Shown one piece after another: positions 2,299 to 28,201 of a stretch of 44,327 bases of DNA. Position 1 is the stretch's first letter. Each line of letters begins with the position of its first letter. This DNA is from Deltaproteobacteria bacterium (GTDB lineage: Bacteria; Desulfobacterota; GWC2-55-46). The stretch covers positions 1 through 44,327 of the forward strand of contig JACPGB010000030.1 in the NCBI GenBank assembly GCA_016182655.1, given 5' to 3'. The notes under the pieces are model-generated. The model had not been told where the DNA came from, did no database searches, and saw only the letters and a program-made list of their open reading frames with translations. Made by a program: the position numbers and the translations under genes.

Positions 2299-2421
2299 CC
2301 GGGGATGGAAGTTTTTTTTACGAAAGGCGTAAAAAAGATCAACAGTGCGTAAAGAAGTTTTACGGGTAAGGTATTGAGGGGATTGGGGTTTTCTGGATTG
2401 CCTTGCGGGCTCAGGCTAAGC

Positions 2422-2446
2422 GGGTTCAGTTTTGTAAACTGAACCC
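2422..2446 (+). repeat. 25-nt palindromic repeat, copy A
   Basis: A perfect 11-bp stem, GGGTTCAGTTT pairing with AAACTGAACCC around a TGT loop. The flank CATTAATTCGTAAC follows. The same unit with this flank occurs at 27452-27476 (same strand) and 28084-28108 (opposite strand). There is no T-tract directly after the stem, so it is not a classic terminator. Confidence 0.8.
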
Positions 2447-2465
2447 ATTAATTCGTAACTCAGTC

Positions 2466-2542
2466 TACGCCGGATGACTTATTCGAACCCTCTGTCAAAA
2501 GGCTTTTTGCCTCAGCGTACAGATGCGACTTTATCCGGCGTA
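2466..2542. repeat. Inverted repeat with 10-bp arms around a smaller hairpin
   Basis: Arms TACGCCGGAT (2466-2475) and ATCCGGCGTA (2533-2542) flank 57 nt that contain a smaller hairpin (AAAAGGC/GCCT type). The segment sits between the 25-nt palindrome and the GC-rich repeat and is absent from the equivalent place at 27.5 kb, so it may be a small insertion. Confidence 0.55.
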
Positions 2543-2561
2543 CTGTGCCATTTTCTTTTTT

Positions 2562-2817
2562 GCCCTGCCGGGCTTTTTTTCGGCATGGGGCTTCGCTCCC
2601 TCCGCCCTCCCCTTCCCCGCTGGGCGCGGGGCCAGAGTTCTTCGGAAGCTATTGAGGTTAGGGTACGAATCGCCTTCGATACGAACTTTGCCAGTCCGGC
2701 GAGGACCGCTCGCCTCCCCTGAGCGCGCTTCGCGCGTCTATCCTTCCTCCGGCTCGCGCGTCTCTTCCTCTCTTAAGGTCGCTCACCACATGCCTGGGGG
2801 GTTTTGAAAACAAAAAA
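2562..2817 (+). repeat. GC-rich dispersed repeat, copy 1 (longer form)
   Basis: It begins with a terminator-like GCCC-TGCC-GGGC stem followed by a run of seven T, then GGCATGGGGCTTCGCTCCC, and ends with CTTAAGGTCGCTCACC and a CATGCCTGGGG motif. The same blocks in the same order occur at 27539-27704. This copy has about 90 extra bases (about 2620-2707) between the shared blocks; the end of that insert carries a third repeat core (TTTGCCAGTCCGGCGAGGAC). Confidence 0.75.
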
Positions 2818-2838: not shown

Positions 2839-3372
2839 TTAATCGGGCCTCATACCGCGCGTCCTTTGTAAAAGGTTGGAGAGTCCCTTGCCGCCGAAGA
2901 AGAGGATAATACCTAAAATGAACTGCACTGCGGTGCTGAAAGCAAAGACATATTCATCCTCTATTTTCCAGACCAACTCAACGCCTTCCTGTGCGGCTCT
3001 ATTTTTGGCGTAGAGATTAGAAAATACCAAAAGAATATCTGGAATAGCCAATATTGCGATAAGGAGACCAGTGACTGAAAAAGCTACTGACTGGAGGTCG
3101 GATATATTAAATCTCTCTGAACTAAACTCCCCGGGTCCGCAGACCCTTTTAGCAAGAGAATCCGAAAAAATGACAAGGACGCAACCCGCGCCGAACATTA
3201 ACAGAAACGAGATGGCGCCGCCTATCAGATACAGATTATTTTCAAAAAAAACTCCACCCTGCCTGTACATCGCTAGCGCGCTAAATAATGAGCCAAAGAG
3301 CGGTATCGAGTTGATAAAGGCGTAAATGCCGAGGACCTTCATGGCTATCGACATGATACTCTGTACCGGCAT
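2839..3372 (-). CDS. Four-helix integral membrane protein, unknown function
   Basis: A 177-residue protein with about four hydrophobic helices: residues about 10-30, 45-70 (LIGGAISFLLMFGAGCVLVIF), 95-120 and 143-162. A charged loop (KRVCGPGEFSSERF) follows helix two. GGAGAG lies about 7 nt before the ATG. I recognise no family. It follows proS on the same strand after 30 nt, where a short GATAA/TTATC hairpin with five T might weakly terminate proS transcription. Its sequence is more AT-rich and less biased in codon use than its neighbours, so it may be a lineage-specific or acquired gene. Confidence 0.7.
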   Translation of the reverse strand: MPVQSIMSIAMKVLGIYAFINSIPLFGSLFSALAMYRQGGVFFENNLYLIGGAISFLLMFGAGCVLVIFSDSLAKRVCGPGEFSSERFNISDLQSVAFSVTGLLIAILAIPDILLVFSNLYAKNRAAQEGVELVWKIEDEYVFAFSTAVQFILGIILFFGGKGLSNLLQRTRGMRPD

Positions 3373-16906: not shown

Positions 16907-16948
16907 GAGGCATTGGGGGAAACTTTCTGTAGAAAGTGCTCGGCGCAC

Positions 16949-17025
16949 GGCCAAATGAAATCGGAGCACAGATGCGTTTCATGCATCCAGCCGATTGATA
17001 CGGATTTGCCCGTCCGGCGAGGACC
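16949..17025 (+). repeat. Third dispersed repeat family, copy at pilT-recX
   Basis: Starts GGCCAAATGAA, passes a CCGAT block, and ends GGATTTGCCCGTCCGGCGAG-GACC (17003-17025). The same order of blocks is seen on the opposite strand at 27880-27931, and the terminal core alone at 2687-2708. Confidence 0.65.
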
Positions 17026-27120: not shown

Positions 27121-27451
27121 AAGACCTCTGAATGAGTCATTGATGATGAGGATAAAGACGCAGAGCTCGGCCTATGGGGAAGTGCAGGCAAGGCGGAGGG
27201 GCCTGACGGTATTAAAAGGCATGGGATATGTCATGAGACAGGCACCTCCATCGGCGCTCTCTGCCCCGTCGAGGGGCAAGGGCTTAACGGCCGTCAATGG
27301 CCCTTTAAGTCCCTTAAAACAGGTACATTGTACCACAACTTACCTTTTTTAGCATACAAGTATGGATGTGTAAAGGGTTTTTGGGCAGGGACAGCCCTTA
27401 TCCCTCGAAAGAGGGATAAGGGCTGGGGCGGGTGCAATTGGGATTTTTTGC

Positions 27452-27476
27452 GGGTTCAGGGTTGTAACCGGAACTC
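27452..27476 (+). repeat. 25-nt palindromic repeat, copy B
   Basis: GGGTTCAGGGT faces ACCGGAACTC around a TGT loop, with two mismatches and one G-T pair. Flanks TTTGC before and CAT-TATTCGTAAC after match copies A and C. At stem pair 9 this copy and copy C have G-C where copy A has T-A. Confidence 0.75.
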
Positions 27477-27538
27477 ATTTATTCGTAACCCGATATGGGT
27501 TTGATAGGCAATTCCAATTTTCTGCTAAAAGCCTCTGC

Positions 27539-27704
27539 GCCCTGCCGGGCTTTTTTCGGCATGGGGCTTCGCTCCCTCCGCCCTCTCCCGCCCACGCGCT
27601 CGCCTCCCCCGAGCGCTTCGCGTCTATCCTTCCTCCGGCTCGCGCGTCACTTCCTCCCTTAAGGTCGCTCACCCCATGCCTGGGGAGTTTTGAAAAACAA
27701 AGAA
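27539..27704 (+). repeat. GC-rich dispersed repeat, copy 2 (shorter form)
   Basis: Same blocks as 2562-2817 in the same order: GCCCTGCCGGGC with a T-tract, GGCATGGGGCTTCGCTCCC, GCTCGCCTCCCC, TCTATCCTTCCTCCGGCTCG, then CTTAAGGTCGCTCACCCC and CATGCCTGGGG. It lacks the roughly 90-bp insert of copy 1. Confidence 0.75.
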
Positions 27705-27879
27705 ATGAAAGAAATTCACCCTCCCCTCTATCCCCTCCCATCAAGGGAGGGGAAGTTAATAACGAGTCTTTTTGTCTTGTCTTTACAAACACACAGGCGC
27801 ATGGCGGAGAGCGCATAAGGGAGGCCGGGGTGAGCGAGCCGTGGCGCGAGGAGCGAAGCGACTTTAGGGGCGAGCGAAC

Positions 27880-27931
27880 GGTCCTGGCCGGACTGGCAAA
27901 TCCGCATCGGGCGGTTGTGCTTCATTTGGCC
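27880..27931 (-). repeat. Third dispersed repeat family, inverted copy
   Basis: On the minus strand: GGCCAAATGAAG, a CCCGATGC block, then GGATTTGCCAGTCCGGCCAG-GACC. The blocks align in order with 16949-17025; the core also matches 2687-2708. Confidence 0.65.
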
Positions 27932-28083
27932 CTAAGCAACCCGATTTGAAATTGGCCCCGCGCCGAGCGGGGGAGGAAGAAAGCGCTCGGAGCCATCGCC
28001 GAAAGCGCGCGGAGCGCGCAAAAAGGCCTCAGGCAAAAGATGTGGTGTAGCCCTGGGGAGTATTATTTGAATTCCGAATTAAT

Positions 28084-28108
28084 GGATTCAGGTTACAAAC
28101 CTGAACCC
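28084..28108 (-). repeat. 25-nt palindromic repeat, copy C (inverted)
   Basis: On the minus strand: GGGTTCAGGTT, TGT loop, AACCTGAATCC, with ten Watson-Crick pairs and one G-T pair, followed by ATTAATTCGGAA. It faces copy B at 27452, so the pair brackets about 660 bp as inverted repeats. Confidence 0.78.
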
Positions 28109-28201
28109 GCAAATGAAGCGCTCGGAGTCATGCGAATGAGCTCGCGGAGGCGCATAAGGGCCTTTGTAAAATTACCTTCCCCCCTGAACCCGCGATCAGC
28201 A

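Follow-up and report, generated by a model that had tools for sequence, protein, structure and literature searches.

In the REP/RAYT systems outlined by Nunvar 2010 (PMC2817692), a palindromic repeat occurs in many intergenic copies, usually more than 100, a single-copy IS200-like gene is bracketed by two inverted copies of the repeat, and repeat and gene covary. The palindrome that we term module A resembles these systems in all features except its number, its copies being far fewer, and it differs from those pairs by lacking the GTAG tag and by being joined to a large companion, module B. Facing pairs of A with a spacer occur, as in the REPINs presented by Bertels and Rainey (2011, PMC3116915); however, the A pair in the DNA analysed here spans 663 bp with B and a further repeat, unit C, inside, and the copy near 2.4 kb has a single A. 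In the BIMEs and mosaics of Neisseria, according to the sections of Di Nocera (2013, PMC3733652) on these repeats, different repeat families are interleaved in intergenic DNA and REPs lie mostly downstream of genes, and the present repeats are similar in both respects. Unlike in those mosaics as set out there, the REP-associated module here receives a non-REP unit (C) at one set position, and C also forms arrays of its own; A falls outside the GTAG/CGTC REP superfamilies, its palindrome foot being different. REP-targeting insertion sequences are also described, such as ISRm22, which lies on the axis of palindromy (Tobes and Pareja 2006, PMC1525189). Our element D likewise occupies the axis of the palindrome (17 of 18 places), and its duplication reads 11 bp, compared with six for ISRm22 in that account. 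The system is of the known REP/RAYT kind without the GTAG tag, plus a large companion module and two further repeats at fixed points.

Organisation of the two repeat loci

We analysed a window of 44,327 nt, which is contig C38 of a 2.91-Mb genome in 60 contigs. The 399-bp block at 2419-2817 had 72 matches in its own genome, the next best after the self-match reaching E values of 1e-150 to 1e-121, and a reversed-palindrome control gave no match across all 59 genomes, so the repetition greatly exceeds what chance would give. Exact matches to a B1 motif in named genomes comprised 19 stretches, each from a MAG with the title Deltaproteobacteria bacterium (GWB2_55_19 and NC_groundwater isolates). 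The block is one of many mosaic copies of short repeats that litter the intergenic gaps of a group of uncultured groundwater bacteria. Six module profiles were run over 94 loci of the same genome, window included, and gave the order A, L1, L2, B1, C, B2 for the block:

2420-2461, + strand: module A, REP palindrome GGGTTCAG-N9-CTGAACCC (2422-2446) with inward tag ATTAATTCGTAAC; profile match, genome-wide palindrome sites, and a RAYT-adjacent palindrome, in orthologs too
2467-2505, + strand: linker part L1; profile match
2507-2560, + strand: linker part L2, a lineage-specific linker type; profile match, 14 of 29 own B copies, B tree
2562-2611, + strand: B1, first part of module B, GCCCTGCCGGGC-T7-CGGCATGGGG...; profile match
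2619-2708, + strand: unit C, third repeat family, embedded in B; profile match over positions 1-90 of 90, ends shared across the family
2709-2815, + strand: B2, second part of module B, ending CCCCATGCCTGGGG-like / CATGCCTGGGG; profile match

A sequence-only reading had matched this block with a second locus at 27.45-27.70 kb. Both loci do carry palindrome A (2420-2461; 27449-27492) followed on the same strand by GCCCTGCCGGGC and a T-tract (2562; 27539). An A/B copy lies within the second interval, and the composite there continues to 28111. The profile scan gave its order (27449-28111) as A(+), L1, B1, B2, an inverted B2' with its own C, and A(-):

27449-27492, + strand: module A; profile match
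27498-27534, + strand: short linker, L1 only; profile match
27539-27587, + strand: B1; profile match
27599-27701, + strand: B2, with C absent between B1 and B2; profile match, junction reading
27777-27869, - strand: inverted, diverged B2', right half of the composite; profile match, score 19
27879-27968, - strand: unit C in the right half of the composite; profile match
28069-28111, - strand: inverted module A closing the composite; inverted-repeat match and profile match

The 2.4-kb locus had been said to differ by two extra pieces. Both the roughly 90-bp piece and the longer linker are present, and the longer linker recurs in 14 of the 29 B copies of the genome. The 90-bp piece lies inside B and belongs to a third family, as proposed; it is a complete unit C, more than a family core at its end. 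Only one A was found at this copy, with no inverted A pair. The neighbouring gene at 2839-3372 had no match in six relatives, and an empty site for the 2.4-kb copy was not found there.

The A ends of the composite at 27.45 kb form a 42-nt inverted repeat that is 86% complementary, as would be expected if the element were an ordinary MITE of a DDE transposase. We consider such an origin extremely improbable, since the gene flanked by the same A ends encodes a Y1 (HUH) transposase and not a DDE one, no target duplication around the composite is apparent by eye, and a single end is present at the 2.4-kb copy. At cheA-ahcY, the orthologous site, the element is absent from G002 and G017, and in the G005 locus cheA is not adjacent to ahcY; the comparisons with relatives gave no clean empty site. 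As a separate observation, the inner part of the composite at this site is inverted in G003 (L148) relative to G000 (window 27449-28111) and G004.

Module A, its RAYT gene and element D

The genome carries three Y1_Tnp genes. The single-copy RAYT gene (IS200-like transposase, HUH/Y1; above the Pfam Y1_Tnp cut-off) lies on C23 and is bracketed by A, the downstream A being intact and the upstream one split by D. Its orthologs, at 62-73% identity, were found in other genera, families and orders of the same class, and the HUH histidines and catalytic tyrosine were invariant in eight proteins. A adjoined all nine RAYT gene copies or fragments checked (L154-L161, L168), flanking both sides in the six full-length ones (L154-L159) and one side in L160 and L161, where the RAYT gene matches are partial; the own gene and five full-length orthologs were scored as having A on either side. 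In L155 and L156, the nearest left A copy is a variant on the opposite strand, with more A copies farther out. The stem arms of A covary (GGTTCAGG/CCTGAACC and GGAGCAGG/CCTGCTCC in L155 and L156), and in G037, which carries a more distant relative (36%), the palindrome downstream of that gene is the variant TGGTTCAGG...CCTGAACCA; every A site listed for this genome is of the TGGTTCAGG kind. Twenty mononucleotide-shuffle trials gave no palindrome of the A kind. When ortholog presence was scored from matches of at least 54% identity, partial ones counted, A was held by 10 of 10 genomes with a RAYT ortholog and by 25 of 49 without (59 genomes, several of them incomplete MAGs). The adjacency of A to the single-copy gene and to its 62-73%-identical orthologs shows that A is the cognate REP of this gene in its own genome.

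A RAYT relative with a stop-codon break (L168 1501-1590, G020) still has A palindromes adjacent. Each of the other two Y1 genes (L074, L075) is bracketed, as judged by eye, by a different palindromic repeat, GGCGGGACTTTCCAGTCCCGCC-like in one case and GTCGGGTTACGC...GCTAACCCGAC-like in the other; three REP/RAYT pairs may therefore coexist in the genome.

Module A behaves as a short palindrome with many extragenic copies (62 non-redundant sites, partial ones included). Neither GTAG nor CGTC occurs at its palindrome foot, which reads ATTAATTCGTAAC-like or TTCAT-like. Neighbouring A copies less than 1 kb apart were oriented ++ in 11 pairs, -- in 3, +- in 7 and -+ in 1, some of the ++ and -- pairs being one A split by D. 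We rejected a REPIN as the description of the block, with one A at the 2.4-kb copy and facing pairs in 7 of 22 cases within 1 kb. The RAYT protein would copy single-stranded DNA beside A hairpins, so that A would spread with flanking B.

The 18 places occupied by D were merged by hand from 32 match rows. At 17 of these D sits on the axis of palindrome A, with an A half directly at the D end, the exception being C4:114. D ends are ACTACTGTCCGG-like (L174-L185, L190, L192-L194, L197), and GGTTTGYAACC stands on both sides of D wherever both are readable, which constitutes a target-site duplication. A check for such duplications had been proposed for the inserted pieces; one flanks D, and none was established for C. 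The D copies are short, or, in several cases, reach contig ends, which suggests that D is likely part of a longer multi-copy IS. These results show that D is an insertion element nearly confined to the A axis, for which palindrome A is the landing site. Insertion into a REP palindrome, the mark of a REP-targeting IS, is found for D, which by analogy with those insertion sequences would reach the palindrome by transposition.

Module B, its linker and unit C

B is a dispersed companion repeat of about 150 bp, often beside A: 18 of the 29 own B copies, and 13 of the 23 related ones, have an A no more than 160 bp upstream. Among the 29 own copies, L2 was present in 14 and C in 15, and the four L2/C combinations numbered 8, 8, 7 and 6. 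We built a B tree from 50 copies (2 of 52 were left out as too short; the tree is weak, with 6 of 47 branches starred). L2 required 5 changes on this tree, compared with a shuffled mean of 13.2, and none of 2,000 shuffles gave as few. L2 marks a lineage of B copies and is no insertion special to the 2.4-kb copy, so the suggestion that the linker difference arose by nested insertion fails. The TACGCCGGAT inverted repeat (2466-2475 / 2533-2542) is no conserved feature either, its left arm being unique to the 2.4-kb copy among the L2-type linkers listed. Several B copies from related genomes have other linkers of similar length, and the short linker appears, by eye, to have lost the stretch between two CTTTTGCGC-like direct repeats.

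Unit C gave 120 profile matches in the 94 own loci, some duplicated through overlapping loci. Among the matches listed, C occurred in tandem arrays, singly, within B, within B' and within an unrelated GTCATTGCGAGGAGC...GAAGCAATCTC repeat, always with the same two ends; the arrays were mostly of 2-5 units with a period of about 87-94, and in many of them the units were near-identical over the whole ~90 bp. We rejected CRISPR as a reading of the arrays, because near-identity spans the whole ~90-bp unit, as opposed to short repeats with unique spacers. A copy outside B is also present in the window:

16938-17025, + strand: single C unit between two co-oriented genes; profile match

On the B tree, C required 15 changes (12-18 over 1,000 bootstrap trees), near the shuffled mean of 16.8, and 471 of 2,000 shuffles were as low, which indicates no tie of C to B's history. 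In most B copies GAGCG flanks C on both sides, and C-less junctions read mostly GAGCG-AAT-GGG or GAGCG-CGT-GGG, with small variants. The flanking direct repeats would allow the long form to be ancestral and the short forms to have arisen by deletion of C between them, and the presence of C within B in at least three species makes the B+C combination old. This history is nevertheless quite improbable. The GAGCG-GGG scar expected of it was seen in 0 of 24 C-less junctions, which instead have AAT or CGT, with small variants, so the simple deletion that the sequence-only reading had set against its nesting idea was not borne out. Unrelated places, too, carry C with the same ends. Finally, at the orthologous cheA-ahcY site, where C lies in B' only in G000, in B only in G003 (inner part inverted) and in neither in G004, two gains of C suffice for the three copies, whereas losses alone need at least three events.

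Spread of C among B copies only through gene conversion from an old B+C ancestor, without mobility of its own, would account for its one position in nearly all B copies and would leave C presence unlinked to the B tree, as observed. We regard it as possible but doubtful, given that C is also found alone, in arrays and in the unrelated repeat, and that two B copies (L013, L024) carry C 3 bp off the usual position with the empty-site triplet kept, the triplet in L013 being a CGT retained left of C. The random scatter on the tree and the lack of a deletion scar in the 24 C-less junctions support independent movement of C relative to B; the scatter could also reflect recombination between copies.

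C would enter B by its own route, through insertion or short-homology recombination at GAGC(G). GAGC(G) is also C's own right end, which would explain the head-to-tail arrays. The first units of arrays, among the matches listed, mostly have no preceding GAGCG, which counts against GAGCG as a strict target.

Placement relative to genes and overall reading

Gene calls came from a codon score trained on the window and are therefore approximate in position. Clusters with B lay in 15 convergent, 13 co-oriented and 2 divergent intervals (10 undecided), compared with 2 convergent, 20 co-oriented and 5 divergent (13 undecided) for C-only clusters (convergent versus not, Fisher p = 0.0005). In 23 of 32 cases (p = 0.02) the gene preceding the B1 hairpin was co-oriented with it. 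We also considered A/B as terminator carriers and rejected this role: both window copies are among the 9 exceptions, and the terminator scan does not call the B1 hairpin.

Promoters were predicted as sigma-70-like, outward-reading matches of at least 9 of 12 positions starting no more than 20 nt from the cluster edge. C-only clusters had one at 18 of their 79 sides, clusters with B at 1 of 80 and A-only clusters at 4 of 28, and shuffled C flanks gave a mean of 2.5 and a maximum of 7, compared with the 18 observed. In L109, L110, L118, L124, L128, L130 and other own C-only loci, arrays abut predicted outward promoters, opposite to A/B loci. In relatives, the six sides of 3 C-only clusters had no good outward promoter. 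The promoter-side pattern could also arise if the gaps upstream of genes are short and tolerate insertions only ahead of the promoter. The open-licence literature on REP mosaics, nesting, REP-targeting ISs and promoter-adjacent tandem repeats yielded no description of C. A fuller proposal, unlikely as it stands, would make C a mobile repeat not described so far, with insertion following GAGC(G), also where this is the right end of C itself, so that head-to-tail arrays form; the arrays would be kept right upstream of the promoter -35 box for shielding or tuning, and single copies would land in repeats such as B.

The intervals might alternatively encode structured small RNAs, with C arrays as tandem hairpin RNAs, and two arrays (L115 412-651 and L144 152-374) do resemble NrsZ on the same strand. 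Their scores of 27.1 and 25.7 bits, respectively, are far under the Rfam gathering score of 76.9, and an Rfam scan at gathering scores gave no match in the window and, with nine loci added, a tRNA alone. RNAalifold on 63 C units gave only 3 pairs, a z-score below -2 was obtained only for L144 among 10 C units folded as RNA, and left and right arms from the same unit showed no pairing advantage over swapped arms (matched by 9,193 of 20,000 permutations); end-to-end pairing of C therefore had no support from RNAalifold, single-strand folding or the arm test. The control pairing of the C left arm with the middle did differ (own -10.1, permuted -8.8, sd 0.4). With inward promoters into C arrays also rare (1 of 40 and 0 of 39), a small-RNA function is very unlikely.

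The earlier observation is thus largely right, and the view that repeats land inside repeats is supported, with C in B at recurrent exact sites and D on the A axis. Nesting is borne out for C and, strongly, for D in A, a case that the earlier reading missed; for the linker it fails. In a BIME, REPs alternate with other motifs at regular spacing; here A, B and C form a mosaic whose spacing is irregular. The block is probably a BIME-like mosaic of an A/RAYT pair, companion B, independent C and D on the A axis. It lets one follow how mosaics of intergenic repeats accumulate, here from a REP and its transposase gene, a companion module, C and D, and the several related genomes allow one to ask which repeat moves by itself. 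The location of C arrays beside predicted promoters, the opposite of A/B placement, poses a separate question.
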